A stretch of 64,000 nt of DNA from Coemansia sp. RSA 487 (lineage: Eukaryota > Kickxellomycota > Kickxellomycetes > Kickxellales > Kickxellaceae). The position numbers and the translations under genes were made by a program. Every line of letters begins with the position of its first letter. Position 1 is the stretch's first letter. The notes under the pieces were generated by a model. The model saw nothing but the letters and a program-made list of their open reading frames with translations. It did not search any database and was not told where the DNA came from. Location: positions 62,001 to 126,000 of the forward strand of contig JANBRJ010000043.1 in the NCBI GenBank assembly GCA_027577595.1, read 5' to 3'. Shown piece by piece: positions 3-24,386 of this stretch.

Positions 3-707
3 ATGCGGTGCCATTGGGAAATCATTAAGAGATGCGATATCCTTCATCGCGATATCTCAGTAAACAACATGCTCGTGCGCAGAAACAGCAACGGCGAGGC
101 TCGAGGAATGCTCATCGACTTTGACCACTCAATTACCATTAGCAACACAGATGGGCCTGTACACGCCGAACGCACTGGCACGCTTCAGTTTATGAGCATC
201 AGCAACCTCGAAAAGTCCGAATTGAAGCCCACAGTGCTAGACGACTGGGAGTCGATGCTGTACATCCTATGCTGGGTTGGGACATTCGGATGGAACAGCA
301 AAACACGCCCGAATAAGACTGATAATAGTAGTGAGCCTAAAAAGCTCGACAGATGGCACCAGGGGACTCTCAAACAGATAGCCGACGCGAAAAGGGCTGA
401 TCTCGATAGCAGTAATAGCTTCCAGAACATTATCTCAGAGTTTAACCTTGGGTTGGGGAACATCGGCCTACTGGTTAATTTGGTTAAAAAGCTGCGCTAT
501 GTGCTAATCGATAAATGCTCCAGCGATCTCCGTGGCGCACTCAAACAAGAGGATCTTATACCCAACGCTGAAACTGGAACGCTTGAAGTTGTAGTTCTCA
601 GTGACCCATTCGAGGAACGTGCTGCAAAATGGAAAGAATTATCAGAGTCGCTTCTTACGGTGCTGGAATATTCTACACAGCAGGCAAGAGAACGGCTTAG
701 AAAATAA
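3..707 (+). CDS. FunK1 (fungal-type) protein kinase, 3' part, cut by window edge
   Basis: This reading frame is open from the window edge to a TAA at 705-707, so the visible 234 residues are the C-terminal part of a longer protein. A catalytic-loop motif HRDISVNNML appears at about residues 15-24, followed by LIDFDHSI in the place of the DFG segment and GTLQFMSI in the activation segment. HRDIS-x-x-N together with a distant C-lobe (YVL-type helices) is typical of the FunK1 fungal kinase family. The protein probably phosphorylates Ser/Thr, but no substrate is known. The N-lobe with the ATP-binding lysine lies outside the window, so activity cannot be judged. Two relatives occur in the window, one intact near 51-53 kb on the minus strand and one broken near 12.2-13.1 kb. 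Confidence 0.85.
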   Translation: MRCHWEIIKRCDILHRDISVNNMLVRRNSNGEARGMLIDFDHSITISNTDGPVHAERTGTLQFMSISNLEKSELKPTVLDDWESMLYILCWVGTFGWNSKTRPNKTDNSSEPKKLDRWHQGTLKQIADAKRADLDSSNSFQNIISEFNLGLGNIGLLVNLVKKLRYVLIDKCSSDLRGALKQEDLIPNAETGTLEVVVLSDPFEERAAKWKELSESLLTVLEYSTQQARERLRK

Positions 708-2047
708 TTTCGATAGCTTTTAAATGTTTTCTGCACTTCACAACCTTAGAGTTTAATATTATTATGACCATGTATTCAGTGCCATTAGAAACTACGGTAT
801 TATAAACAACTCTTGTTAAAGCTGAGCTCTACACAAGCCGTAACATTGTGTAAACCAAAGATACCTTCGAATTATAACCAGTCAATTGCATGGAAACGGG
901 TCGGCTCAAATGACTAAAATAGCACAATTTCATGTAGATTATATTTATATAAACGATAATGCTGCAATACGCTCTTTGCCGTTGGCTATCACGAAAAACA
1001 AAATGTAATAAAATGAAATATCTCTTTAATTATCGAAAAGTGCCACCGTGCACTTTATTAGAGAGCAGCCACTCGTGGAATGGGCGTTGACTCACAATCA
1101 ACACACTACATGCCAAATCAATGGCGCCCCCATATCGATACTGTTGTACTAGGGTTAAAAGGGTCATTGCGAGCTTTATCATTCTTGCAACTGTAACACT
1201 CAAAGCTTAAACCACAGCAATCAGCGCTTTTACCCGCATACTTTTGCAGTATTTAGTGCCAAGAGCAGTGCTTGCACGAAAAGTTGGACATGGTTGTGTC
1301 TTGAAGAAAATTTACAAGATATAATATTTGATTGAGTAGTGGTGAAGTAAATATGCGTATTTCCCTTTTGTTTGTTGCAAGGATCCAAATGTTTGCTTCT
1401 GGAACTTATTAATATGTGAACAGATGGAGCTTGATGCTATTATAATATTAATGATTGTGCATAATTGTCCATCTTATATCTTTGAACTTCCATTTGTGCT
1501 AATTCTATTTCAGAAACTGTTAATTAGAATTTCAAACGCTTTATCCTTCGAATGTCGCTAAATATATGCTTCATTTACCATACCACATTGCAAATACATC
1601 TTGTAAACGAATTTCAATTTACGAAATTGTTCGCTGCTGCTTGTATCTTGTGTAATCTGAATATTTCCAGTTGAGGAGAAATCATTAGGTTGCTGATATA
1701 TAGAAACCAATTCTTGCTGCGGCAATAGCATTATTCTTGCATTCTGTTATTCTCTTTTCCAAACGGTTATCTGGATACAGCCTTTTACATTATTTTCATT
1801 ATTTTGCAGTTCATCCTTTACCTTGTCTAGACATATACTTTATCTTATATTTAAACACCAACGCTCAGCGTATCATCAAATGTATAAAAGAAAAAACAGG
1901 AAATGCACCATGAAATGTCTGTATTGCATAGTTCATATTCCCTATGTATAGCGTGTTAGTAAAATAGGAATAGAATTGATTAAAGGAAACAGGAAAGAGA
2001 TTTAAAGAAAAGAAATAACATGTAGCTTTTATAGAAAAGAAAACAAA
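708..2047. other. AT-rich spacer without recognisable gene
   Basis: No convincing coding region or RNA gene was found on either strand in these 1.3 kb. A TATA-like TATAAAAG lies at 1883-1890, 158 nt before the ATG of the small ORF at 2048, which matches the TATA-to-ATG distance seen for the two LITAF genes further on. Confidence 0.5.
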
Positions 2048-2401
2048 ATGGATGAGGCACCGGTAGAAACGCTGGTACACTTCCTGGAGTGCACAATAGG
2101 AGACCCAGAACAGCGTACACAGCCGCCGGGCCTGGCAGAGACGGCATGGATGGACGGATTTGTCAGGCAAAGGGCCACTATGGTCGGCATAACACAAAGG
2201 AGCAGAAGGGAGGTTACCGACGCCCTACGGCAGGACTTGCACCAGTTCCAGCAGACGGCACAAGAACCAACGGCCGCCATAGTGAGACCTCTACTACAAC
2301 GGGCGTATAGGCAGCGACTGATATACGTAAGAGAGAGGTGGATAACGAGAAACGAGAGACAAGTTGGCAGAGAAGAGAACTCGAGCATGCGGCCGGGCTG
2401 A
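2048..2401 (+). CDS. Unrecognised small ORF, 117 aa, in a GC-rich island
   Basis: I do not recognise this protein. The ORF is Arg/Gln rich, predicted to be helical, has no signal peptide or membrane segment, and starts at an ATG in a good context (A at -3). It forms a GC-rich island between AT-rich flanks, and a TATAAAAG box lies about 160 nt upstream, which favours a transcribed gene. A coding-like composition continues for about 80 bases beyond the stop, so it could instead be an old gene or mobile-element remnant. No family can be named. Confidence 0.35.
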   Translation: MDEAPVETLVHFLECTIGDPEQRTQPPGLAETAWMDGFVRQRATMVGITQRSRREVTDALRQDLHQFQQTAQEPTAAIVRPLLQRAYRQRLIYVRERWITRNERQVGREENSSMRPG

Positions 2402-2768
2402 CGACGACACCTGATGAAGGAGAAGCAGTTAAGGACACACGGAGACACCGACGGGGTGCCCAGGTGGCAGCGTACAAAGATTGATGATGTATAGTTCAAA
2501 AAACATGCCACATCGGTGCTTCAAATGACAGCGGGTTTACGAGCTTCGTAAAATATTTATCATGATTTAATTCATATAGCTGTGAGGCTAGTGCTGCTAC
2601 CATTTAACTGGTTTTTCTAGTACGGGACTGTCCAAATTTATTTGGGTGTCTCGGATCTTTTAATACTGGGCTGTACCCAAAACCTTTACTGCATCCACGT
2701 GGATAATAAATTCGGTATATTATCATATTTTTATCAAAGTATTTCTATTCACCCCCTTGTATAATAAT

Positions 2769-3401
2769 ATGTCAAAGATAATGTCGAACCAGGTCCAGAG
2801 ACCCCCACCGGCTGCAAACAGCGGCAGAAAAAGCGCCAGAACAGTATTAAAGGGCGAAAACTGGGATGAAGCAACGCTTGAGCAAAGGCGCCACGTGCGT
2901 CTGCAAAGACTTGAAAGAGAGAACTACATAGCGATACCCGAGTTCGACAACCTCACGATAACTGTTGATAGTGCAACGCAGGGGTCAAAACGACAAGGAA
3001 GACCTCGGTCTGTGTTCTCTGCTCCTAAACAAAACTCGTCGGCTATAGTAATCGGAACTGGCGATGAGGGTCTGAAACGCGCAAACCGTAGGGAAACACA
3101 GCTGCTGGCCGCAAGAAAGAAAACGCTTGCTGATATAATCGACGAGGAAACGCAGCAAGCCTCGGCCCTCTGTGCGCGCAATGATTCGGATGAGCCAACA
3201 GAGAAACTCAACGTGTACTATTATATGACCTGTGTTACGACACCGGAGCAAGGACAGTCGCCTAGATCTCCTGTGCGTCATTTTTGTTCCATATGCGGCT
3301 ACAAGGGACTGTACACATGCGTCGATTGCGGTATGAGATACTGCTCGCTTGCCTGCAAATCGACACATGCCGATACAAGGTGTCTCAAACACGTAGTGTA
3401 A
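2769..3401 (+). CDS. VPS71: HIT-type zinc finger protein, SWR1 complex subunit Vps71/Swc6 (ZNHIT1-like)
   Basis: The 210-residue protein ends in a HIT zinc finger (about residues 171-207): CSIC, CVDC, CSLAC, a His and a final Cys near the C-terminus, in the order of the zf-HIT family. The N-terminal part carries the conserved basic helix (LEQRRHVRLQRLERENY) that ZNHIT1 proteins use to bind the Arp6 module. Vps71 belongs to the SWR1 complex that deposits H2A.Z in nucleosomes, and it acts in the nucleus. I chose the ATG at 2769; a second in-frame ATG at 2781 is also possible, and the frame upstream has only a non-ATG start. The protein is shorter than the yeast one (about 280 aa) but similar to animal ZNHIT1. 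Confidence 0.85.
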   Translation: MSKIMSNQVQRPPPAANSGRKSARTVLKGENWDEATLEQRRHVRLQRLERENYIAIPEFDNLTITVDSATQGSKRQGRPRSVFSAPKQNSSAIVIGTGDEGLKRANRRETQLLAARKKTLADIIDEETQQASALCARNDSDEPTEKLNVYYYMTCVTTPEQGQSPRSPVRHFCSICGYKGLYTCVDCGMRYCSLACKSTHADTRCLKHVV

Positions 3402-3465
3402 TATGTAAAACAGGTATGTTTGTCTTTATTGAATATATATATATTCTTAATCTGTAAAAGAACGA

Positions 3466-6400
3466 CTATACGCCAGTCCTCTTATTTAGCATTTGTTGCA
3501 GGACGTCCATTTCGCCGCTCTGCTCGCACATATTATAGAAGTGGCTGTCCTTTTGCTTCAGCAGCTGCTGTGGAGCGTCAAACTCTACAACCTTGCCATT
3601 GTCAAGAACCAGCACGCGATCGTAGTCGATGATGGTGCGCAGCCTGTGGGCGATGCAAAGCAATGTTGATCCGCTGAACTCGGGTCCGCGGATAGCGTTC
3701 TGCATGCTGTGATCGGTTGCAAAGTCCACCGACGCTGTTGCTTCGTCCAATACGATTAGTCTCGACTTTCTGACAAGTGCCCTAGCCAGTGCCACGAGCT
3801 GCCTTTGGCCCAGCGACAGGTTCTGACCATTGCTTACAATCTCGTCATCCAGCGTCACAAACGCCGCAACGCTGGAACCCTGGCTGTCCTGCTGCTGCTG
3901 CTGTTGCTTGAGAAGAAGCGTGCGCCGGAGAGCTGAAATAAGTGTTAGATCGGGGTGGTCGTTGAAAGGATCGAGATTGAAGCGGATTGTGCCATTGAAA
4001 AGCACTGGATCCTGTGGGATTATCGTTATGCTCTGGCGCAGCCTTTCCAGTCCCAGATCCAGTATATCCACACCATCTAGAACGATGTTCCCACTCGTCG
4101 GCTCTACAAGCCTCAGCAATGCCCGCGACAACGTCGATTTACCGGCACCCGTGCGACCAACAATGCCGATCCTCTCGCCATGGCGAGCATCAAACGAGAT
4201 GCTGCGCAACACCGGCTGGTCTATCGTGTATCCGGCTGTCACATTGCCAACAAACAAATTGCCCGAACCTGGCCACTCGACAGGGATCTGTCTATCTTTG
4301 GCTGTTTCCGACGCAGCTTCTTGCTCAATCGCCATGTACTGGTGCACTCTCTCGACGCAGTTCAGCGAAAGCTCCAGATCGTTGTATCGATTGACAAGAG
4401 CCAGTGCGTCAGACCAATAACTAGCCGCATATATGAGGATAAAGCCTGCCAGCCCAGCGCTGATTTTCCCGATTCCAAGGATCACAAACAGGGCAGTAAA
4501 GAACGACACCAACGAGCTCGCAAACCCCAGCCGTACACCCACCCACCGGCGGGTTGAGCGCAGAACAAAATCGGCGCAAATGAGCGATGAAAGCCGCAGT
4601 TGCATCTCGTCCATGTATTCGCGCTGCATATTGAATGCACGGATCACCGAGCATCCTGGAATCATCTCGCTGTAGAGTGACAGAATCGGACCCATTCCAA
4701 CACCTTCGAGCCGCTTGGCTTCTCTTTGCGCATGCATAAACTGCAAGGTAAAGTAGACGTAGGAGGCCATGACAAGGACGCCGACTATGGCAAAGAGCGG
4801 AATGGCTGAAGAAACGACGATGAGCGAAATCACCAGAGACAGCAGATAGCGCATAAACAAAAACAGTATCTCCATGATGTCCTCGTCGATTACTTGCATG
4901 TCCTTTGTGAATCGCGACATGATTCTGCCGATGGGTGTTGTGTCTAGGAAGCGCGGCGTTGCATGGACGATTGCGAGGAAGAGGCGGTTGTGCAAAGTAG
5001 TTGACGCCCTGATTCCGCAGGCATAGAAGCAGAGGAGCGCCAGCGCGCTGATGATCGCAGAAGCAGTTCCGATTCCGAGGTATGTGGCAAGCAAAACAAG
5101 CATGCTCGCCTGCTTGTCGTACAGCGCCAGAGAAGAGCTAGTAGCGGCTGCTCTGTCGATGCCCTCTATTCTTGTTGCAAGGTAGTAGTCCTTGTATACC
5201 GCCAATAGCTGTGCGCCAGCAACGCAGATGAGACTGCCGGCCACGAACCTCCATCCACCGCAAGGATCTAGATACACCTTCCATGTCTGCAGTGTCACCG
5301 CTCCCTTTGCTCGTGTCTCGTCTTCGATGATTCTCCCGTGTCGGTCGTGTTCAGCCATTCCAGACAAACGCTGCGCATTGAGTTCGTCCTGCGACGGCTG
5401 AGTGGTATCGACAGAATCACTGCACTTGCCAGTAACAGCTAGATCGCTGTCATTGAAGTCGCCATTTGATGCGATAAGCTGCTGGGGCGTTCCTTGGAAC
5501 GAAGCGATACCAGCGTCCAGCAGCACGACAAACTCGCTATGAGACAAACACATTGGCATATGGTGTGTGACGAGAATCCGTGTGCGGTTGCACATAATCT
5601 CGTCGCTACTTGCAAGACAATGGTGCAGAATATGTCTCCCGGTTTGTGCGTCTACTGCAGACAGGCAATCGTCGATGAGCAGTATCTGCCTGCTTGAATA
5701 GACAGCACGTGCCAACGACACTCGTTGCTTTTGCCCACCAGACAGCGTAATCCCACGTTCACCGACTTCGGTCATATCGCCAGCCGGAAACATGCAAAGA
5801 TCGGGGCGTAAAGTACACATCCCTAATACCTTTTCATATCTGTCTTGGCAGTAGGGCTCGCCAAATAAGATATTGTCCCGAATCGATGCATTACGCAGCC
5901 ATGGCTCCTGTGAGACATACGCTAGCTGATCCAGCCCGTAGCCAGGAACCGATGTAAACGACGAATCTATCGGCATAGTCGAAATCGGGACGCACACACT
6001 GCCCTCGATAAGATCCATTTCACCAACAAGGGCTGCAAGCAGCGCCGATTTTCCGCTTCCAGTTGGGCCGCCAACCAAAGAAAGCTTTCCGATCGGGAAC
6101 TCGATACTGATGCCTTTCAAGGCAAACGGCATGCGGTCGGCTGACAAAAGCGGATCGGTGTGGCTGGTATTAGCTGTTGCCCATGCCAGCGTGGCGTTGC
6201 GGAACCCAAGGCTGTCGTCTGTGGCGCCTGAACAAACTCTGTCCTCGAGTCGCTGGATGTCTGGCTGGTTCAAGAACTGCTCAATGCGATGTAGGGAGAC
6301 CCTGAAGCTGGTAACGCTGGCCATCATTGAAGGGAACGTATCCACCGAGCGCTGGACAATTTTAAACACCGATATGGCTGTAAACACAGTCTCTGCCTCG

Positions 6401-8190
6401 AGCCCACTGTAGATGCTGAACAGATAAAACGATGCAAAGTTGATAAGAGGCAAGGAGCCAACAGTTACCAGGTTGATGAGCGACCAGATCTTTGCGCGCT
6501 CCCATGTTCCAGACAACTGCTTGGCACGTTTGCTCCCGATAAGCTCGACAAACCGCGTTCCCCAGCCAAACAGCTTGATGGACGAAATCCCCTGGACAAT
6601 ATCCTTTGTCATTGCTAGGCGCTGGTCGTTAAGCACGCCAATATTCACTTCAATCTTTCTGGCCCGGGCAACAAGGCTTTGCGATAAACGCACGACAGCA
6701 ACAAGTATCATTGTGCCTAGCAGCCCAGCAAGCCCAAGCAGCTTGTACATGTAGTATGCGCCAACAAGCAGTTTTACAGGAAGTACAAAGAACAACTCCA
6801 GAAGCGAAAGGAGCTTTGAAATGCGCATCATGTCAGACGTGGCGATGTTGTAGATTCTACCGTCCGAAGATTCCTTTGAATCGTCGCCGTCGTGCGACCC
6901 AGAGCACGATTTTTTGCAAAGCGTTTTCTGGGAGACAAGCTTGTATAGAACGTTGCGAATGTTCATATACATTGCACGCGAAAGCCAGAACTGCTGTTGA
7001 TTGACACACGTCGACAATAGATTCGAAAACAGCATAATAAATGGCAAAAAGTAACCATATCGCATGCCAATCGACGGATCCTGGGTATATCTGTTGATAA
7101 ACCAGAGGAGCTGTTGCAGAAAGAACGGCTGAGTGTACTCGAACAACGCACTGAGCGGATTAAAGAGCGCTTGCAATAGAACATCTCGTTTAAACGACAC
7201 CAAAAGGTTCCATGTCAGGCTGTTTTCCTTGCGTGAATGCTTGCTGAAGCGCATCCACGACTCATCAGGGAGATACTTTGACGGAGGCTCAAATAGGTCA
7301 TCAATGTTTGGTTGGCGCTTCTTTCCCAGCTCCATAAAGTCACCGACCCAGCTGAACAGTGCATTGCTAAGGATAGAGCTTCCAGTCTCAGATGATGGCA
7401 TTCTTGCTTGTCTTTCCTTTGTAAGCCGGCGCAAACATACGGATTCCTCTGGTGGGTGAAATAGTTGACTTTGCTGGTCGGCTTCCAAGTCATCGGGTGG
7501 CAGTGAAATAGGTGACCCAAGCTCTGGAAGATTGCGAACGACTAACAGAAGATACAGTGCTGCTGTCATGACAGTAAACTGGAGTAATAACTCTATGCTC
7601 TCGCGCTTTCGATTAGGGTCAAGGATCGGCACCTTCAACCGCGACTCGATGAAAAAGTTAAAGTACACATCGACAAAATCGGTGCCAAAAGTGAGAATGA
7701 CCAGGGTAAAAATCGGCAGCCGGAATAATCCAAAGTATAGCGTTCTGCCGTGCTGCTTTCTACTCTGCTTGTATTGCTTCCATTGAGCGACGGCTGCTGA
7801 AGTGGCCGTAGCCCAGGCACAGAGCTGAACAGCGGTCAAAAAGACTAAACATGTCGGAAGCCACTGATAGCTTTTAGTTGATATCGCAACAGCCAGCCCA
7901 TATGCTTTTAGCGCCTGAACCGCCGTGTAGATGCCAAAGAGCGCAATAAGGAGAGGACCAAACCATGTGCGGTTGTCGTAGCCGGTTCTAGAAAAGTGAC
8001 CGTGTTCCCTGAATGCAGTGCCATTGCTTTCTTGTCGTGAGCAGCACTTCCAAACAATAGCAGCACCTATTGCTGGCAGCAGTGGACTGAACAGAATCCA
8101 AATACACGTAATGTGCTTCCAGCCCCAATACCAAACGCCTGGCTCCGAAAACTCACAAGAGGACATATCATAGAAAGCAGCTGGGATCAT
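3466..8190 (-). CDS. ABCC/MRP-type full-length ABC transporter
   Basis: The 1574-residue protein has the full MRP/Ycf1 architecture: an N-terminal TMD0 of about five helices, TMD1, NBD1, TMD2 and NBD2. NBD1 has a Walker A GPTGSGKS near residue 707, the signature LSGGQ near 817 and Walker B ending in Asp (LLIDD) rather than Glu, the usual degenerate site of the ABCC class. NBD2 has GRTGAGKS near 1343, LSLGQ near 1457 and LIVLDEA near 1480. A run of seven glutamines (about residue 1428) is inserted between the Q-loop and the signature of NBD2. Family members export or sequester glutathione conjugates and other organic anions across the vacuolar or plasma membrane; the substrate here is unknown. 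The start is the ATG at 8190, giving the N-terminus MIPAAFYDMSS; the longer frame has no ATG. Confidence 0.93.
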   Translation of the reverse strand: MIPAAFYDMSSCEFSEPGVWYWGWKHITCIWILFSPLLPAIGAAIVWKCCSRQESNGTAFREHGHFSRTGYDNRTWFGPLLIALFGIYTAVQALKAYGLAVAISTKSYQWLPTCLVFLTAVQLCAWATATSAAVAQWKQYKQSRKQHGRTLYFGLFRLPIFTLVILTFGTDFVDVYFNFFIESRLKVPILDPNRKRESIELLLQFTVMTAALYLLLVVRNLPELGSPISLPPDDLEADQQSQLFHPPEESVCLRRLTKERQARMPSSETGSSILSNALFSWVGDFMELGKKRQPNIDDLFEPPSKYLPDESWMRFSKHSRKENSLTWNLLVSFKRDVLLQALFNPLSALFEYTQPFFLQQLLWFINRYTQDPSIGMRYGYFLPFIMLFSNLLSTCVNQQQFWLSRAMYMNIRNVLYKLVSQKTLCKKSCSGSHDGDDSKESSDGRIYNIATSDMMRISKLLSLLELFFVLPVKLLVGAYYMYKLLGLAGLLGTMILVAVVRLSQSLVARARKIEVNIGVLNDQRLAMTKDIVQGISSIKLFGWGTRFVELIGSKRAKQLSGTWERAKIWSLINLVTVGSLPLINFASFYLFSIYSGLEAETVFTAISVFKIVQRSVDTFPSMMASVTSFRVSLHRIEQFLNQPDIQRLEDRVCSGATDDSLGFRNATLAWATANTSHTDPLLSADRMPFALKGISIEFPIGKLSLVGGPTGSGKSALLAALVGEMDLIEGSVCVPISTMPIDSSFTSVPGYGLDQLAYVSQEPWLRNASIRDNILFGEPYCQDRYEKVLGMCTLRPDLCMFPAGDMTEVGERGITLSGGQKQRVSLARAVYSSRQILLIDDCLSAVDAQTGRHILHHCLASSDEIMCNRTRILVTHHMPMCLSHSEFVVLLDAGIASFQGTPQQLIASNGDFNDSDLAVTGKCSDSVDTTQPSQDELNAQRLSGMAEHDRHGRIIEDETRAKGAVTLQTWKVYLDPCGGWRFVAGSLICVAGAQLLAVYKDYYLATRIEGIDRAAATSSSLALYDKQASMLVLLATYLGIGTASAIISALALLCFYACGIRASTTLHNRLFLAIVHATPRFLDTTPIGRIMSRFTKDMQVIDEDIMEILFLFMRYLLSLVISLIVVSSAIPLFAIVGVLVMASYVYFTLQFMHAQREAKRLEGVGMGPILSLYSEMIPGCSVIRAFNMQREYMDEMQLRLSSLICADFVLRSTRRWVGVRLGFASSLVSFFTALFVILGIGKISAGLAGFILIYAASYWSDALALVNRYNDLELSLNCVERVHQYMAIEQEAASETAKDRQIPVEWPGSGNLFVGNVTAGYTIDQPVLRSISFDARHGERIGIVGRTGAGKSTLSRALLRLVEPTSGNIVLDGVDILDLGLERLRQSITIIPQDPVLFNGTIRFNLDPFNDHPDLTLISALRRTLLLKQQQQQQDSQGSSVAAFVTLDDEIVSNGQNLSLGQRQLVALARALVRKSRLIVLDEATASVDFATDHSMQNAIRGPEFSGSTLLCIAHRLRTIIDYDRVLVLDNGKVVEFDAPQQLLKQKDSHFYNMCEQSGEMDVLQQMLNKRTGV

Positions 8191-8566
8191 GGTGGAAAAT
8201 AAGGAGCATTCAAAATAAGAGCAATGAAGAGACAAGAAAAGCAAACGCAGAGGAGCTGCTTTATTCTCTTTGCCTGCAAAGGTTGTCAACGGTTCACATT
8301 ATAGAAACCGCAGCAGAAATAAAATCGTGGCAGTTATCATTTAAATAGGTGGATGTATTTCAAACGAAAATACCTGCTGCTGTACATTCGTCGTTGGCTG
8401 TTGATCCATCAAGGCTCTGAGTTTGAACTTCATTGTTTTTTATACTAGGGACAATCTTTTATAATCATGGCCGTGGTTTTTACGTTGAGGGCCAATAGAT
8501 AGTGATTATTTATTAATTTTCTGCAATCAGAGCAGCAAATTGGATTGATTTGGCTGGAAATCTGAT
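8191..8566. other. Upstream region of ABCC gene and 5' flank of tRNA-Asp
   Basis: No gene was found here. The last 60 bases or so (about 8505-8566) are similar to the 5' flanks of the two other tRNA-Asp genes at 50.3-50.8 kb. Confidence 0.5.
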
Positions 8567-8638
8567 TCTCCGATAGTATAGTGGCGAGTACGCCAGTCTG
8601 TCACATTGGCGACCCGGGTTCAATTCCCGGTCGGAGAG
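8567..8638 (+). tRNA. tRNA-Asp (GTC)
   Basis: A 72-nt cloverleaf with a 7-bp acceptor stem (TCTCCGA/TCGGAGA), anticodon arm CCAGT-CTGTCAC-ATTGG giving anticodon GTC, and T-arm with GGTTCAATTCC as B box. Discriminator G is at 8638 and a T-run (Pol III terminator) follows at once. There is no intron. Two copies with the same gene sequence, as far as I can read, lie at 50371 (+) and 50656 (-). Confidence 0.97.
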
Positions 8639-8989
8639 CTTTTTTACATTTTATTTACTAGATTGGTAACACCCAGTTTCTTTTTTTTTTGTGGTTAGCA
8701 TAAATAGATACAGCCTTGCTGTGGAAGGTATTTCCGAGAAATAGTTTGTTCTTTCCTGCACTAAACATTAGCAATTATCTAATGTTGCTTGTAACATGTT
8801 GAGCAAGAATGATTATAGGGATATTAGTGAGGCTAGCTGAATAAAGAGAAAGGTGAAAAATACCGAGGTTACTAGAGGACACTTCCACTCTTTGCTCCAA
8901 AAAAGTAGCTGCTGTACTAAAATTATACTAGATAGTCTACATCTTTTAATTTGATGAAGAAGAGTTGGTGATTAGCTTGCAAATCGCAA

Positions 8990-9740: not shown

Positions 9741-9885
9741 GATGGTGCATTGCTCATATAAAAAGAAATAGATGATTGTTGCGATGAAATTTTTCTATTT
9801 TCTTATATTGTTTTGTTCTATACTGAGCTATCATCGTGAGCGATTTTCCGATTATAAAGTATATTCCAATCATTCGAACGCAAAT

Positions 9886-10389
9886 ATGAACAACATAAGC
9901 CACTATCAACAACAAAACATGAGCTTCATCTATACGGATAGCTCGCAAAGCCGCAGTTCAGCATCGATAACTATGTCGAACGGATCGATGAATAACAGCT
10001 TTGTCACTGAGGGTGGACTGCTCGCCAGTCCGCCTCAGGCGTATCTGCCTCCTCAGATCTTCCACGGGCAACAATTCATAAATGACAAACAGAGAATACT
10101 GAGCGCAAGACCACAGCAAACACCTGGGACAAATGCTGTTTATTTAAAAACAGCAAGACTACCAAAGCTATATTGCTCGCGGTGCATGCGCACAGTGACA
10201 GCTTACGTTGAAAAGGAAATTACTGGTTCAACTATCTGTCTAAGTGTGACCCTTTTCTTAGTATTTATGCCGTGCGCACTCGTGCCGTTTTTAAGCGATT
10301 CTTGCAAAGACGATATCTATCGCTGCAGTGCGTGTCGCTCCAAACTAGGAGATACAGCGCAACTAAGATCAAAGTTAGAGCGCGTATAG
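9886..10389 (+). CDS. LITAF-domain membrane-associated protein, copy 1
   Basis: The 167-residue protein has a Gln/Ser/Pro-rich N-terminal half with a PPxAYLPPQ proline motif, then a C-terminal LITAF domain: a CSRC knuckle, a hydrophobic stretch that dips into the membrane (LSVTLFLVFMPCALVPF), DSCKDD and a second knuckle CSAC. LITAF proteins are anchored on the cytosolic face of endosomal or plasma membranes and bind one zinc ion. I chose the ATG at 9886 because it aligns with the start of the neighbouring paralogue; the frame is open upstream to an ATG at 9772, but that lies only 39 nt after the TATA box. The function in fungi is poorly known. Confidence 0.8.
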   Translation: MNNISHYQQQNMSFIYTDSSQSRSSASITMSNGSMNNSFVTEGGLLASPPQAYLPPQIFHGQQFINDKQRILSARPQQTPGTNAVYLKTARLPKLYCSRCMRTVTAYVEKEITGSTICLSVTLFLVFMPCALVPFLSDSCKDDIYRCSACRSKLGDTAQLRSKLERV

Positions 10390-11086: not shown

Positions 11087-11236
11087 GATGGTCAATTGCC
11101 TACTGAAGGAGGAGAAGAGGGTTCTGTTTGTGGTATTTCCTTATTTTCTATTCAAATTATCCTATACTGGACTACATTTCACTGCGGTTTCATAATCCTA
11201 GCTTTTAAGCATTTTTATTGGAGATAAAGGGGAGCG

Positions 11237-11713
11237 ATGAGTGGCAACGACCAGAACCAACAGCAAAATACGAGATACATTTATACATATGGACCGCAAA
11301 ACTACAGTTCAACGTCGATTCCTATGGTACACGAACCAACGAATAACAGCATTGTTGCTGAGAGTAGGGCAGTGAAAGACCCGCCTCCAGCGTATCTGCC
11401 TCCCCAAGCTGTTCAAGGGCATAATTTTGGAAGCTACCAGCAAGGAAATGGACCACGTACCTTTTACATAGAAACGGCTGGGTCGCCAAAACTACATTGC
11501 TCGCATTGCATGCGCAAGGTGCCTGTCTATGCCGAAAAGCAAATGACAGGACCAACAATCTGTCTGACTGTGACTCTTTGCTTTGTGTTTTGGCCGTGTG
11601 CACTTATACCGCTTTTGAGTGACTCTTGCAAGGATAACTTTTACCATTGCTGCGTGTGTCGCTCCCGGCTGGGAGAAGTAATAGAAATGAACCCTTTGCT
11701 GGAGTACATATAA
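11237..11713 (+). CDS. LITAF-domain membrane-associated protein, copy 2
   Basis: The 158-residue protein is a tandem paralogue of the preceding gene. It has the same Gln-rich start, the PPPAYLPPQ motif and the LITAF domain with CSHC, a hydrophobic segment (LTVTLCFVFWPCALIPLL), DSCKDN and CCVC preceded by a His. The zinc ligands are intact. The N-terminal half has diverged faster than the domain, as expected for a flexible tail; the PPxY-like proline motif could recruit WW-domain ubiquitin ligases, as known for animal LITAF, but this is inference. Confidence 0.85.
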   Translation: MSGNDQNQQQNTRYIYTYGPQNYSSTSIPMVHEPTNNSIVAESRAVKDPPPAYLPPQAVQGHNFGSYQQGNGPRTFYIETAGSPKLHCSHCMRKVPVYAEKQMTGPTICLTVTLCFVFWPCALIPLLSDSCKDNFYHCCVCRSRLGEVIEMNPLLEYI

Positions 11714-12213: not shown

Positions 12214-13120
12214 ATGTCTAATGCAGTGCATCCCACAGAACTATCCAAACCCATGGAACTCATTACGAGCTTCCTTAGTGGTCAGAAGAGGCGTGGCAGA
12301 AGGACAGAAGAGCACGAAGGAAGCGCATATAAGCGCTTCACTGAATTTATAGAGCAACAGGCTGAGCGCGACCCAAAGCTGGATTTTAAAGCGAGATTAT
12401 ACTCATGGACTATATTGGCATGTTGCTGAAAATATATATGGAAATCATGTTTACTGGAGGTGGCGGTTCTTTAGTTAACTTTGTCGATATTATTGCTGAC
12501 TGTGCGGTGACACTCCTTTATGTGGCTTCGGCCAAGAACTCTGTGCTACATCGGAATATTTCGTCGGGAAATCTGATAGTAAACGAGGGGAAGCGGCGGT
12601 TATCGATTGGTGGTTGGTCTTGCTTTGAGCGTCAACGAACGAGCCGGATTCGTCCAACATCCCCGAAGATTGGCACATTAATTTACATGGGATTGTGCGT
12701 GCTGCAAAATACTGAAAGCCGCAGCATCATCGACGAATTTGAGTCTCTGCTCTTCACAGTTTTTCATCATTTCCGCCTTATTTGTGATCCAAGGCAGACC
12801 AAAGCCGACGATATTTGGAACGATGGCTTGGGAACTGACGATTTCTTGAAAGTACGCAAGTAATGGCTTGAGGACGAGGATAGTTTTCTGAAGAGGCTTC
12901 CGAACAAATAGACGTACAGTGCAACAATGAGGATCCTCGTCTTTATACCATCGATTTTGATTTGTGGGCTGTAGGCGTTTTCGACATATACGAGCTCAGC
13001 CATGACGATTCAGAAAACCTAAGCCAGCCATTGGATCTTGTAAATGACAAGTATCCCAAGAAAAGACCTGCTGACGGCGATGTATTTAACGAGACAACAC
13101 CAAAATGTGCCAGGTTCTAG
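12214..13120 (+). pseudogene. Broken FunK1 kinase copy
   Basis: Three consecutive open pieces in different frames (about 12214-12429, 12405-12863 and 12890-13120) together show the order of a FunK1 protein. The middle piece has HRNISSGNLIV, close to the HRDISSGNIAI of the intact gene at 51-53 kb, but the catalytic Asp is replaced by Asn and the DFG-like segment reads SIGGW. The last piece ends in a basic tail (KKRPADGD...) like the tail of the intact copy. The gaps are too short to be introns of the size used here (about 100-270 nt), so a frameshifted host gene is the simplest reading. Activity is not expected. Confidence 0.7.
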
Positions 13121-16406: not shown

Positions 16407-19400
16407 ATGGCCATTTCATTTTTTGGGTCTGCTGCGTACGATCAGCTTTGGTCAAGGTATGCCAACCATACAGACGACAGCGACGGCAGTGATTAGGTTG
16501 CATCACCTATCGCCACATTATTTGAATACTACTAACCATACCATAGCACCGCCACTACTACTTTTGTGTATCTTTGGCCTTCTTTCTTACACTTCATTAG
16601 AAATGCAAATGAGCGTGCCAATGCAGCAGCAATTCTACACAAAAAGGTAAGGCGCTGTCCATACACCAATGCGTGTAACCCCCTTCGAAATATCCACCTT
16701 TTCTTTTACTGAACGAGACCCCAAGGTGTTCCTGTATTCGTATAGATCGTTGACGCAGACGCCAGCGGAAAGACGGGCAGCCAAAACCCAGTGTACACCG
16801 ACACCAGCACCAAAATCAGGAAGCACATAAACTCCGCCAATTCTGTTGATCGTTTGGCATGTACATCGATGATATCAGCGCTTGTGGATATTGACGGGCT
16901 AGAGGACATGCAAAAGACCCGCATTGTCAACCAGCTCAAAAGCCTGTATTCTGGCGGAAGCGATAGTACTGTTTGTGCCGAGGCTGTTGTACTATATGGT
17001 CAGCTGGTTAAAAAGAAATGGCCAGTGATAATGTCTTCCATCAAGCCCGAGCTTGACCGTTGCCTTGAATGGCTGTCTGCAGAGCGCGACTTGGTACGCC
17101 AGATAACAGCACTGCGACTTATCCAGGTTCTTTGCGATGGTGCTTCGACGACAATGTATCTGTATATCCTTAATATCCTCAATGCCTTAAAGGCGCCGCT
17201 TCGTAGCCATTTGCCAGAGATGCGGGAGACTACTGCTAGTACACTTGAAATTGGGCTTGACCTTGTTCTCCTTCATGACAAGTCAGTAAGGAGCATGCTT
17301 CTTGACAACATGTACCAGGAGCTTCTGCACAACCACAGGCTTGGTAGCGTCGAGGGATACCATTCAGCGCTGCTTATATGCCAAGCAATGTTACTGCATG
17401 GCAGCAAATATATGGAAGCGCACTACAACCACGTCAGCGAGATGGTTCTCGAGCTAAAGGAACACAAAAACCCCACTGTTCGCATGGCAGCAATCGGCTT
17501 GTTGCCCATTCTAGCCCGCTTTTCGCCAAAGGTGTTTGCAGAGCTAGAAATTGATGGCAAGACACTGATGTCCAGGGCATGTGGGTATCTAATCGATGTA
17601 GCACAGAGGACCGACAAAGAGAGCCAGGCAGCGTTTTTGGCGCTTGCAAACATTGCAAAGTCCTGTAGCCCCGATTTTCTGCAGTTTCTTGAGCCTACAA
17701 CGCGTTCAATCAGGAACGCACTCACTATGTATGCTAAGCCTCAGCCACCGCAGACAGGCCGCTATAAACAGGTACCTACCGCCATTCTGCAAACGATCGC
17801 AATTCTAGCATCTGCCATGGGCGCAGACCTCACTCGACACATGTACGGGATTCTTGATCTTATGTTTGTCACCGGACTGAGCAACGAGCTGTGTAATTCC
17901 TTGTCTGCTCTTTTACTCAATGTTGGTCAGCTACGGCCAGCAATCCAGAACCGGCTGCTCGATATGATATCGATTATCCTCGTGAAAGTGCCGTTTCGTT
18001 CTGATGAGCCCGCGCTTGATGAAATCAATCAGCGACTGGACCTTGTCTCGCTGCATCACACACTCCCCGCCTTGCGTACCAGCAACAGCAGCGACAGCAG
18101 CAGCGACAGCAGCAACAATAACGTCACCCTAGACGACAGCGAGGCAATATCGATCAAGGATATAGCAAAGGACATTACAGTCACACACGAAACATTGGTA
18201 TTTGCGCTCCAAACTTTGGCGCGCTTCGACTTTAGCGAAGAAAATCTGCCCGAGTTTGTACGCAATGCTGTGTTGCGGTATGTTGGAAATGGCAGCGCCG
18301 ATGTGCGCAAAGCGGCAATGCAGTCGGCATTCCAAATACTGCTTTCCGACTCAATGTACATACAGCCCGAGGGACCCGGCACCGAGGTGGCAAGTGAAGT
18401 AGTCGAGCGTCTCATTGCGGTTGCGGTTACTGACATTGATCCTACCGTACGGTTGGTAGCAGCCCAAACCTTGGCGCAGGGACCGTCCCTTGATTTCCAC
18501 TTGGGCAAGGAACAAAACATTAAAAGCATGCTAATGCTGGTCAACGACGAGATTTTTGAAATGCGCCTAACCGTGATTAGCATCATAGGACGGTTGACGG
18601 CTATCAACCCAGCAAACACGGTCCCATCGATCCGTCGAATATCGTCGCAGCTGCTCATGGAGCTTGAGTTTGCAAACACAAACAGCGAGCACGAGGAATG
18701 CATCCAGCTTTTGATGGAGCTGACGAATGTTGCTGAACGGTGGATGAAGCCGTGCGTCAACGATATTTTCTTTGCCATCTTGCCGCGCATAAACAGCAGC
18801 CCACCGCGGCTCGCAAGCAAGTTTTTGGACATGGTTGCGGCTCTGGCACGTGTGGGCGGAAGTGAGCTTGTGCCGCATTCAAACCAGCTTTTGTCCAGCA
18901 TTGTAAACGTATTTAATAGTCAGGCTAGTGGGTCGGTTTGCTTGTCGGCGCTTCGAGCGCTGGGAAGCTGTGCCAGCTACTGTGGTATGGCCATTGATCC
19001 GTACATAGAGTACCCAAAGCTGTTCAGCATCCTAACAGGCATCCTAAGAAGACAGCCTGATGACGAAATTCGTATCGAGGTCGTGCGGGTGATCGGCGCA
19101 CTTGGTGCAATCGACCCGCACAAATACAAGGGCATTGCGGACACATATACTGGCGCTCAACGCGGAGGCGACGGCAGCGATATCAATGGCACAGGCGCTC
19201 ACATCCACACCCACACCAACATCAATGCCGGCGAGGGAACCTCCAATGGTGGTACTAGCGTCAGTGCTGTTGCTGGAGCCAGGAGTAACGTGCCATTCAG
19301 CTTTGCAAACGGTGTGCAGCTAAACTCTCGACAGGAAAGAAGAAAAGGCAAAGCTAAGCGTGCTAGAAGGAAAAGACTACAGGTTCAGCAAGGGCCACCT

Positions 19401-22400
19401 CCCAACGTAGTAACATTGCTTAATGACGACGATTCGCCCGAGATATTGTCTGGCGATATACCTACTAACCTGAATGGCAGGCAGTTTACATGCGAGAAGC
19501 ACTACTATACAGAAGTTGCAATAAAGGTGCTGATTCGCATCCTTGACAACACATCAGATACCAGCTCCGACCAATACGCTGTGCAGGCGCTACTGCACAT
19601 GTGTGCTCCTTTGAAAGCCAGCTGCTCACCCTACCTACCGCTCATTATACCTGCAATCCTCCGCACTATGAAAGCCTCGCCGCTGCAAATGCCCACGTTC
19701 TTTATACAGCAGCTTACAAAGCTTGTAAACATTGCAGGCGAGTTTATTCGGCCATGCGTGGATCCGTTATTTGAGTTGTTTGACAAGGATTCAGCGATCA
19801 ACGACCAGCACAAACTCTCGCTAATTGGCCTGGTCGAAGCTCTGGCCAGTGCGCTATATGGCGAGTTTGGAATGCACATGACAAGTGTGGTGCAGTTTCT
19901 AGTGTCTGCTATGGAGGAAGACACGTCGGAATCATTACTGGTCACACAGAACGTACTGGGGGTGCTGGTGATCCTTAGCCCCGGCCTCGAGAGCTATCTG
20001 CAGCTGATAATACCGCGTCTTGTTTACATGCTGAATCCAAAAAGGGCATCAGTCGCCATTATAAGCATGTGTTTGGATTGCATATCGCTGATAGTGTCGG
20101 TCGTTGAATGTAGCAGCTTTGCGTCATGTATTATACTGCCGCTCGTGCGCCTTCTCCAGAGCAAACAGTCACAACAGTCCCTGCACGAGCCTATAATGCA
20201 CACGCTATGTACGCTGATGGAGCAGCTGCAGTCCGATTTTGCCATGTATATGCCAACAATCGACGTGATACTAAAAAGACACAGCATTCCGCCACACGAG
20301 CGGTACAAAGAATATTCCTCGCTGCTTTTCTCTGGCCAGTTGGTTCCAGTAACGCCTTCTGTGCGTGTTCGGTCATCGTCAATGGGGAATCTGCCCGAGC
20401 AAAGCGATGACATATCCAGTCTCCATGTCGACGTAACAATTCTGCAGCGGGCATGGGCCACACGAAACCAAATGACAGGAGATGACTGCATCAGATGGCT
20501 GAACAACCTGTTTTCTGAGCTCTTGCAGCAGTCTCCGTCGTCTTCGTTGCGCGCATGCTACAACCTGGCTCTCAAAAATCCAAAGCTTATCAGCGAGCTA
20601 TTTAACGTGGCATTTGTTTCTTGCTGGGCGGATATTCCCATCCAGAACCAGCTGGAGCTGGTAAAATCGCTAGAGGGAGTAGCCTCCAACCCGGATGTAC
20701 CGTTGGAGTTTCTTCAGACGATCCTGGACATCGCCAGCTTTATGGAACGCGACGAAAAGAAGCTCCCTATCGACGTAAAGATTATAAGCAGTTATGCGGG
20801 ACGCTGCCATGCCTTGGCAAAGGAGATCCGCTACAGGGAGACCGAGTGGACGCTAGAGCGCAACGATGAGGCAGTTGAAAGGCTTATCGAACTGAACCAA
20901 GATCTGGATCTGGATGACGAAGCCATTGGGCTGTTGAATTATGTACGCAAGGATAAGCCGACCACAAAGGATAACGTCAAGTGGTGCTTGCGGCTGCAGC
21001 GTTGGGATGATGCCCTAGCAATATATCAACGACAGGAGCTCCTCAACGGGCCGTCAAACAGCAACCTGATTGGGCAGATCCGCTGCCTGTTTGAAATATC
21101 TGACTGGAATGCACTAATTCCTATATATGACCGCATTTGGCGTGGCAAGGACCGTGTGTTGCAAACACAATCCGCAGAAATCGGCGTAAAGCTTGCTTGG
21201 AATGTCGGCGACATTGAGCGTATGGAGTTTTATCTGTCCAACCTGGGGAGCACAGACATAGCTACATCGCTTGATAATGCACTTCTTTGCGTTCACCAAA
21301 ACAGATTCGACGATGCCGCAAACTATATAAATGAATGTCGAGAGAAACTGGGCCATGCGCTTGATGCGCATCGCACCGAGTTTTACAAACAAGGGTATTC
21401 GCAGATTTTCTACTGCCAGATGCTGTCAGAGCTCGAGGAAGTCATTGCGTTCAAGCTGTCTCCTTACGATGTAGAGCGTCAGACAGCACTTGTCAGTACA
21501 TGGAGGCAGCGTCTTGGAGGCATCCAGCAAGATTCTGGCATGTGGCAAAAGCTTTTGAGCATCCACAGCATGGTGCTGCGGCCTGTCATGGACCTGGATA
21601 CATGGATAAGTTATGTCAACCTCTGCCGCCGGTCCGGAAAGCTAAACATGGCGCGCAATGCTATCTGCCAGATACTGGACGACGAGGCTAGCTATATGGA
21701 AGAAGTGTTTCGCGGTAAAGCCTCCAGTGATCAGCCTGTCGACATAAAGACTCAGGCTCAAGAGTACATGAGTCTAAAGGAGCGGTATGTTGTCAACCGA
21801 AGCGACATGTCCCTTAATACTGCAATCCGCATGTCTCAGCAGCCAACGCTCGTGTACTCATACTTGAAATACAAATGGGCTGCAAACGAGCGCCACGAGG
21901 CATTCCAGCTTCTCGAGTCGTTTATCAGGGAGTATTCCAGCAAAACTGGCTTTGATCCGCGCAACTTTGAAAACTTTGCAGACCACACGGATGCGCGGAG
22001 GTTCATAGCTACCGGTAATGACAAAACTGCTTATTTCCTCGCACGCTTTTACTTTAAACACGCCCAATGGTTGAGTATTGTGCAACAAAACTCATCCTTG
22101 GCACAAGCAACGCGCGGGAGCCACTTGGGTTTGGATAAAGGCGATGGTCTACATACGTGGAGATCAAATGTTTCCGACTCGTCTGGTACCCCAAATAACG
22201 GACCAGCAAGCGGATTTGGGACAACGATCAACAGAACAGACTCTGACACAGGAAGAACAAATAGATCAGATCGACTGACTGACGATACAGACATCTTGTT
22301 TAGAGTACGAGGCGAGCAGATCAATGAGCTGATACTGGACTCTTATCGTGCGGCTACGGTGCTTGATCATAAATGGTACAAGGCATGGCATTCGCTTGCC

Positions 22401-24386
22401 TTACGGCACTATCTCGAGACGCAGAGAGAGGATTCTGAAAATGCAAATGTTTCAAACAAAACCATCGACAGCCATGTAGTTCCGGCGGTGTACGGGTTTT
22501 TGCGATCAATTCAGCTTTCAAGAGGCGATACCGCAATGCAGGATGCACTTCGACTCCTGACAGCGTGGTTCAACTATTCACAGCATGGGAGCGTCGTCCA
22601 GGTGGTTCAAGAAGGACTTGATTTGGTGCCAATGAAAACGTGGCTGCAGGTCATTCCGCAGATTCTGGCCTGTATCCATATAAAGCACGAAGGCACGAAC
22701 AGGCTGGTTCGACAGTTGCTTACGAAAATCGGCAGAGCCCATCCGCAGTCAATTTTGTTTTCGCTATACGTGACAGCCAGATCAAGCCACCAGGAAAGAA
22801 ACCATGCTGCAAAGGATGTACTGGCAAAAATCCATATCATTTATCCCGAGCTTGTGGAGGAGGCCGAGGTAGTTAGTCGCGAGCTTGTTCGGGCTGCGTG
22901 TCTTTTGCCAGATATGTGGCTAGAAGCGCTAACAAACGCCAGCAGGTATTATAATAGCTATGGCGATAAATTGCGCGCATTAAGCCTTTTGAAGCCACTG
23001 CACGATCGCATGAAGGCACTTTACACACCAAATGAGCGCAGATTTGCACAAGAGGTTGGCAGCGAGGTTTTGGCAGCAGAGCAGTTTATCAGCCGCTATT
23101 TTACGGCAGCTCCTCATAGCCGGGACATTGAATGGATACACAAGGCGTGGGGGCAGTACGCAAAGCTGCAGGGCAAGCTGATGTATATGGCACGCCAGGT
23201 ACGTAAGCTGTATACGTGGGATGTTGCGCCAATCCTTTTGCAATGTCGCAACATGCATCTTGCGGTTCCTGGGTCATACCATCCAGATCACGAGGTCGTG
23301 CAAATCGAATCCTTCTGCAAAGAAATGTCGGTCTATCCAACCAAGCAGAGGCCACGGCTGATACACATATGCGGATCGAACGGCAAAAAGTACAAATTTT
23401 TGCTAAAGGGAAACGAAGAGCTGCGCCAGGATGAACGGGCAATGCAGCTGTTTGGGCTGATAAACTCACTGCTCATGTATGACGAAGTGACATCGCATCG
23501 TTCGCTGGCCATAGAGCGGTTCCCGGTGATTCCTTTGTCGTCAGATGCAGGGCTGATTGGGTTCTACCCGAACTGCGACGACATGTTTAACGTTGTTAAA
23601 AAGTTCCGGGAAGCGCACAAAAAATCAGTGAGAGCAGAGCAGGATATGCTGCTGCAGTTTGCGCCAAACTACCAGACACTTACAGCGACACAGCAGGTCG
23701 AGGCCTTTGAGTACGTACTTTCCAATTCTTGCTGCGATGATCTGCAGTGGGCAATGTGGTATAGGTCGCCTAGCGCGGAGGTGTGGATGCAGGAGCGGAC
23801 AAACTACACAAGATCGATGGCGGTGATGTCGATGGCTGGATACGTACTGGGTCTGGGCGACAGGCACCTTTCGAACATCATGATACACAGCAAGAGCGGA
23901 AAGGTTGTGCATATTGACTTTGGCGACTGTTTTGAGGTGGCGGCGCATCGCCCGTCTACTCCAGAAAAGGTGCCATTCAGGCTGACGCGGATGACGATTT
24001 CGCCAATGGGAGTCAACAGGACCGAGGGCTCATTCAAACTAACAGCAAACCATATGATGCGTGTGCTCAGAGCCAACCGGGACTCGCTTATGGCAGTGCT
24101 AGAAGCATTCGTGTTTGATCCGCTGGCTGTGTGGTCGTTTATCCAGGATTCAGGCGACATTGAAGATATCCAAACGCAGCTACAGAAGCCACAAGAGGAC
24201 GGTTTGCAGACAAGCGACTTGAAAGCGCGAGCTGTGATCAAACGTATCCAGGACAAGCTGATGGGAAGAGATTTCAACCGGAATGTGTCGCTTTCTGTGG
24301 AGGAGCAGGTGGACAGACTGGTACAGCAGGCGGTGCTTTCCGAAAACTTGGCGCCAATGTATTTGGGATGGTATCCATTTTGGTAA
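16407..24386 (+). CDS. TOR: TOR-type phosphatidylinositol-3-kinase-related kinase, three exons
   Basis: Spliced model: exon 1 16407-16456, exon 2 16601-16646, exon 3 16746-24386, giving about 2578 residues, the usual TOR length. The two introns (144 and 99 nt) start with GTATGC and GTAAGG and end with TAG. The joined start ...YDQLWSRNANERANAAAILHK matches the first HEAT unit of TOR proteins, which supports the splice sites. HEAT repeats fill the N-terminal half, then FAT, an FRB domain (about 2078-2170), the kinase domain (about 2240-2500) with LLKG, LRQDER, GLGDRHLSN and HIDFGD, and a FATC end finishing in GWYPFW. TOR controls growth in response to nutrients within TORC1 or TORC2 on the vacuole or plasma membrane. 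Several rapamycin-contact residues of FRB differ from the consensus, and the DRHPSN proline is Leu. The frame before exon 3 has no ATG, so a single-exon model would lack the true N-terminus. Confidence 0.92.

Follow-up and report, generated by a model that had tools for sequence, protein, structure and literature searches.

Two TOR kinases in Coemansia sp. RSA 487, one of them with a widely diverged FRB domain

The window analyzed here, a stretch of 64,000 nucleotides from a contig of the fungus Coemansia sp. RSA 487, carries a TOR kinase gene whose FRB domain departs from that of human mTOR at positions contacted by FKBP12-rapamycin. Two questions follow from this locus: is the kinase insensitive to rapamycin, and is it the only TOR of the fungus? 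The initial annotation, made from the sequence alone, described a rebuilt rapamycin-binding face and proposed a naturally insensitive TOR, either as the only TOR or as one of several paralogues.

The TOR genes of the assembly

The gene, hereafter TOR-B, occupies positions 16603-24386 of the forward strand and is intact. Its spliced model encodes 2554 aa without internal stops, and most of its length is spanned by a single open frame (16746-24386, 2546 codons). The encoded protein has the TOR/PIKK order of HEAT, FAT, FRB, kinase and FATC, and every domain scores above its Pfam cut-off, including a HEAT_2 match of 29.5 bits and the FRB, for which the cut-off is 24.7 bits (Table 1). Because mTOR_dom, FAT, FRB, PI3/PI4 kinase and FATC all exceed their cut-offs, we regard TOR-B as a full-length TOR, and a 2546-codon open frame with TOR domains argues against a chance origin of the FRB observation.

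TOR-B is not the sole TOR. A profile search of all contigs (17.8 Mb in 184 contigs) finds two FRB domains in the assembly: the FRB of TOR-B at 63.1 bits, and that of a second gene, TOR-A, at 99.2 bits on another contig (C42). The first alternative of the initial annotation is therefore rejected, and the second stands with a count of two genes. TOR-A shares the domain order of TOR-B and is 53.7% identical to it over 2528 aligned residues. The exon 1 peptides of the two genes are alike (MQMSVPMQQQFYTK and MQRSVSVEQYIYAT), and exon 1 measures 44 nt and ends in the same phase in each. We also sought relatives of TOR-B by pattern in viral and genome contig collections, neither of them fungal, where none of the 4, 57 and 73 pattern matches was confirmed. 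A search of the assembly for 5.8S rRNA gave no match, so rDNA may be absent from it.

Table 1. Features of TOR-B in the window, and the gene model of TOR-A
Feature	Position	Strand	Remarks
TOR-B exon 1	16603..16646	+	44 nt, inferred; ATG...AG/GTAAGG
TOR-B intron 1	16647..16765	+	119 nt, inferred, GT...AG; position and phase as in the TOR-A intron (L013:388-628)
TOR-B exon 2	16766..24386	+	one open frame; stop codon within coordinates
mTOR_dom (PF11865), best stretch	19485..19733	+	Pfam, 127 bits for the whole protein
FAT domain (PF02259), best stretch	21177..22091	+	Pfam, 230.3 bits
FRB domain (PF08771), diverged	22881..23171	+	Pfam FRB_dom, ORF residues 2046-2142, 57.7 bits
FRB helix 1 contact codons	22929..22955	+	L 22929 (L2031 kept), S 22941 (S2035 kept), N 22953 (F2039 changed)
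FRB helix 4 contact codons	23139..23171	+	H 23139 (T2098), W 23148 (W2101 kept), G 23151 (D2102), A 23160 (Y2105), Q 23169 (F2108)
PI3_PI4_kinase domain (PF00454)	23391..24137	+	Pfam, 220.7 bits
Phe-Tyr at the mTOR W2239-V2240 hinge	23562..23567	+	identical in TOR-A
Catalytic loop GDRHLSN (mTOR GDRHPSN)	23856..23876	+	P2341 to Leu in TOR-B only
FATC domain (PF02260), without the Cys of mTOR	24291..24383	+	Pfam, 47.1 bits
TOR-A gene model	L013:344-387 + 629-8669		contig C42; 2694 aa

Rapamycin contacts and the expected drug response

We aligned the FRB domains of TOR-B, TOR-A, human mTOR, S. cerevisiae TOR2 and the K. marxianus TOR with MAFFT and compared the eight residues that we take to be the rapamycin contacts: mTOR L2031, S2035, F2039, T2098, W2101, D2102, Y2105 and F2108. 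These positions read L S F T W D Y F in human mTOR and L S F N W D Y F in both yeasts. TOR-A (L S Y Q W E Y F) is identical to mTOR at five of the eight and has Y, Q and E in place of F2039, T2098 and D2102, while TOR-B (L S N H W G A Q) is identical at three and lacks the full contact set of a rapamycin-sensitive TOR. The residue assignments of the initial annotation, obtained by hand, are borne out by this alignment: L2031, S2035 and W2101 are kept, and all five replacements (F2039N, T2098H, D2102G, Y2105A and F2108Q) are present, which leaves N, A and Q where mTOR has the aromatics F2039, Y2105 and F2108. Its location of the domain likewise agrees with the Pfam match at 22881-23171; its residue numbers were 24 too high, the Ser being 2074 and the Trp 2143 once the inferred exon 1 is included. 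One end-truncated pairwise alignment placed a 7-residue gap after the Trp, which disappeared with other sequence ends. TOR-B and TOR-A have equally many residues between the Trp and the conserved motif that follows it (AP.LLQCRNM), so the register beyond the FRB Trp requires no gap.

Substitution at these sites has consequences in known TORs. Mutation F2108L of mTOR leads to rapamycin resistance, according to the excerpt of PMC9499525, and the yeast resistance sites given in the excerpt of PMC2997006 are S1975, W2041 and F2048. The mTOR case is a single mutation in cultured cells at a position also changed in TOR-B, whereas in TOR-B five of the eight contacts are replaced and the change extends across the whole domain. 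Resistance is known to arise at F2108 and at the corresponding yeast residue, so it is reasonable to expect that TOR-B is directly insensitive, and the disappearance of the aromatics at F2108, Y2105 and F2039 makes this likely: judged by these residues, FKBP12-rapamycin very probably does not bind TOR-B. Residual binding is possible, since L2031, S2035 and W2101 are kept.

Four FKBP_C matches are present in the assembly. One of them (L018) is FKBP12-like over 108 residues and keeps the HYTG, KKFDSS, IRGW, YG and VFDVE segments, presumably those of the FKBP12 drug pocket. Because such a protein is present and TOR-A keeps most of the contact site, insensitivity of the whole species does not follow from the state of TOR-B. 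We infer from its contact residues that TOR-A is still able to bind FKBP12-rapamycin; with most of the site kept in TOR-A, TORC1 would be expected to be sensitive through it, and the species may well stay rapamycin-sensitive by the same route.

Divergence of the FRB and the state of the kinase

The two paralogues are only 32% identical in the FRB (103 aligned positions), compared with 70% in the kinase domain, 45-57% in the HEAT and FAT segments and 40% in mTOR_dom. In sliding windows of 99 positions, 23 of 810 are at or below the FRB identity, and each of the lowest 25 windows listed overlaps either the FRB itself or a gapped linker at 791-947. With the K. marxianus TOR as outgroup, unique changes in TOR-B are about twice as many as in TOR-A in five of seven segments and 4.2 times as many in the FRB; mTOR_dom shows no TOR-B excess (8 changes vs 11 in TOR-A). 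Taken as a whole, TOR-B has evolved at about double the pace of TOR-A. Over the same seven segments, which together with the tests were of our own choosing and cover part of the protein, and with uncorrected p values throughout, the FRB of TOR-B has the highest rate of loss of sites shared by K. marxianus and TOR-A: 21 of 42 are lost, whereas the remaining six segments, pooled, lose 178 of 659 (Fisher p = 0.0024). Taken singly, the rate exceeds that of the kinase (31/175, p = 3.6e-5), the middle HEAT (30/114, p = 0.007), FAT1 (50/177, p = 0.010) and FAT2 (16/63, p = 0.013), and is not distinguishable from that of the N-terminal HEAT (43/105, p = 0.36) or mTOR_dom (8/25, p = 0.20). The FRB of TOR-A displays no such excess (5/26 lost vs 91/572 elsewhere, p = 0.59). 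At sites invariant in human, S. cerevisiae, K. marxianus and TOR-A, TOR-B differs in 17 of 37 cases within the FRB and in 26 of 172 after it (p = 1.7e-4).

This loosening is not centered on the drug site. Within the FRB, the paralogues differ at five of eight contact positions and at 62 of 91 other positions (one-sided p = 0.77), and so the divergence is domain-wide: by sequence comparison the entire FRB is diverged, and the drug face has diverged along with it. A specifically rebuilt rapamycin-binding face, as the initial annotation had it, finds no support in these counts.

The fold of the domain is predicted to persist. An AlphaFold2 model of the TOR-B FRB, built with TOR-A as the sole other alignment row, has a mean pLDDT of 82.3; a longer model of 513 residues is poor beyond the FRB (mean pLDDT 39.6) and was relied on for the FRB only, roughly residues 20-116, its kinase part being left unused. 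A Foldseek search superposes the FRB part of this longer model on the human FRB (1fap_B) at 1.3 A, with a TM score of 0.87 by target length and E = 1.3e-3. For the shorter model the corresponding values are 2.2 A, 0.80 and E = 2.2e-2; none of its matches reaches E <= 0.001, although mTOR or the mTOR FRB fills every one of its 24 best rows. Both models are consistent with a retained four-helix FRB fold.

A kept fold together with the highest loss rate of the seven segments might also be expected if TOR-B were a TORC1-type kinase whose FRB has been re-tuned by selection, for other substrates or for resistance to FKBP12-macrolides of soil actinomycetes; the replacement of contact-face aromatics by polar or small residues would fit as well. 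We find this explanation unlikely: contacts are not changed above the rest of the FRB, which general loosening fits better, and a second, apparently sensitive TOR would keep the cell drug-sensitive. Drift in a single species and selected change as such both fit, and cannot be told apart in a comparison limited to human, two yeasts and TOR-A.

The kinase itself appears to be maintained. We take mTOR K2187, E2190, D2338, H2340, N2343 and D2357 to be the catalytic residues, and TOR-B keeps the first five and the D2357-F-G triplet. This bears on another unlikely reading, in which constraint on a redundant duplicate has been relaxed and TOR-B is decaying toward loss or toward a non-kinase scaffold. 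The roughly twofold excess of unique changes over TOR-A in five of seven segments, the catalytic-loop change P2341L and further losses specific to TOR-B would be expected under decay, and the second TOR of Allomyces is perhaps being lost, as the excerpt of PMC2997006 suggests. However, the reading frame of 2546 codons has remained free of stops despite divergence to 54% identity, the catalytic Lys, Asp and Asn and the DFG motif are kept, no segment is better conserved than the kinase, and codon GC3 of TOR-B (0.57) falls inside the range of neighboring genes (0.48-0.71, from nine further genes or ORF segments in the window). The reading that we prefer, with a probability of about 0.7, is that TOR-B is an intact, active-looking duplicate in which the FRB fold is kept and the drug and substrate surface is lost, next to an ancestral-looking TOR-A.

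Two further departures are found in both kinases. Disulfide formation within FATC is known from other TORs; the FATC tails of TOR-B (24291-24383) and TOR-A (the C-terminus of L013) lack the Cys residues present in mTOR and yeast TOR, so this disulfide cannot form in either. At the hinge, Phe-Tyr stands in place of mTOR W2239-V2240. Torin1 contacts W2239, a residue that the excerpt of PMC3953821 describes as absent from other kinases, and since Phe-Tyr replaces it, the response of TOR-A and TOR-B to ATP-site TOR inhibitors may differ from the usual one.

Origin of the pair and possible division of roles

Several features common to TOR-A and TOR-B, judged as derived against human and the two yeasts, point to their origin: Phe-Tyr at the hinge, indels in the FRB and the loss of the FATC Cys. 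Intron 1 also lies at the same codon and in the same phase. Because of the common intron position and the derived residues and indels, the pair looks like the result of a duplication of DNA within this fungal lineage. A segmental or whole-genome duplication block has no support: tblastn with ORFs of at least 80 aa from 19 kb of sequence flanking TOR-A (L014, L015) found nothing in the 64-kb window or in the 9.5 kb preceding it (L017), which indicates no shared block at this scale. The lack of synteny in the fetched flanks and the difference in GC3 (0.57 vs 0.72 in TOR-A) could be read as an assembly artefact in which one copy stems from a contaminating fungus, but this is very improbable given the single Raptor_N, RICTOR_N and CRIM matches and the residues, indels and intron position that both TORs have in common.

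In the scenario that we propose, a TOR gene would have duplicated in this lineage to give TOR-A and TOR-B, of which TOR-A would have retained an ancestral-looking FRB and TOR-B evolved faster, most of all in the FRB. There it would have lost the aromatic and acidic surface that binds FKBP12-rapamycin, phosphatidic acid and the helices of TORC1 substrates. Within TORC1, rapamycin binds to the FRB, which also offers substrate helices a secondary place to dock (excerpts of PMC6325617 and PMC7464330), whereas in TORC2 it is covered by the C-terminus of Avo3/Rictor (excerpts of PMC5700991 and PMC7464330). Tentatively, and at somewhat less than even odds, TOR-B may work mainly in TORC2, where Rictor/Avo3 over the FRB would make the docking surface dispensable, and TOR-A may serve rapamycin-sensitive TORC1; dedication to TORC2 would free the docking surface and so explain the loosened FRB. 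The binding surface itself lends this assignment no direct support, as Raptor and Rictor bind the same one on TOR (excerpt of PMC5700991). The assembly has one match each to Raptor_N, RICTOR_N and CRIM/SIN1; the Raptor and Rictor open frames (1955 and 1690 aa), both being long, do not discriminate TORC1 from TORC2.

Repeated duplication of TOR in fungi is known. S. cerevisiae (TOR1/TOR2) and S. pombe (tor1/tor2) likewise possess two full-length TOR kinases, which share out TORC1 and TORC2 between them, but their TORs keep the residues for rapamycin and phosphatidic acid (excerpt of PMC2997006), most of which are gone in TOR-B. According to the same excerpt, TOR has also duplicated independently in Batrachochytrium dendrobatidis and Pleurotus ostreatus, and the B. 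dendrobatidis copies lack surrounding synteny, as here. Unlike in TOR-B, the rapamycin and phosphatidic-acid residues are reported there as conserved in the species surveyed, these duplicates included, and since the FRB alignment of eight species, S. pombe among them, keeps them, duplication alone does not cause contact loss. The 2010 survey knew of no zygomycete with two TORs, as far as its excerpt states. Precedents for a TOR paralogue with an abnormal or missing FRB are the second TOR of Allomyces macrogynus, a paralogue with an odd FRB (excerpt of PMC2997006), and trypanosomatid TOR4, a natural paralogue without an FRB (excerpt of PMC3160303); in contrast to these, the FRB of TOR-B is complete and predicted to fold normally, with changed sequence and surface. 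A search of the open-access literature on TOR paralogues that have lost FRB sites and on the TOR of early-diverging fungi, covering titles and the opening lines of abstracts among the matches listed, with subscription journals outside its scope, showed no case of this type.

If the preferred reading of TOR-B is correct, one cell contains both types of FRB face, and could serve as a test of what the FRB does beyond drug binding: TORC1 docking, lipid binding and contact with Rictor. The rapamycin response need not reflect all TOR activity in such fungi. A stronger version, in which the lineage has split TOR into one rapamycin-bindable kinase and one permanently rapamycin-blind kinase with an FRB re-tuned for other partners, and in which the altered Torin1 hinge of both would let TOR-B escape both drug classes, seems doubtful to us.

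The downstream flank of TOR-A (L015) contains at least four closely related tandem ORFs and a more distant one, with the motif ITGIYENGDT or a close variant; by eye, they are apparently secreted and chitosanase-like. Within the window, LITAF-like zinc-ribbon genes at 9772-10389 and 11228-11713 are neighbors, by eye an apparent tandem duplication, and three matches to the FunK1 fungal protein kinase family (PF17667) are found at 3-707, 12390-12863 and 51005-53077, the second being a fragment below the family cut-off.
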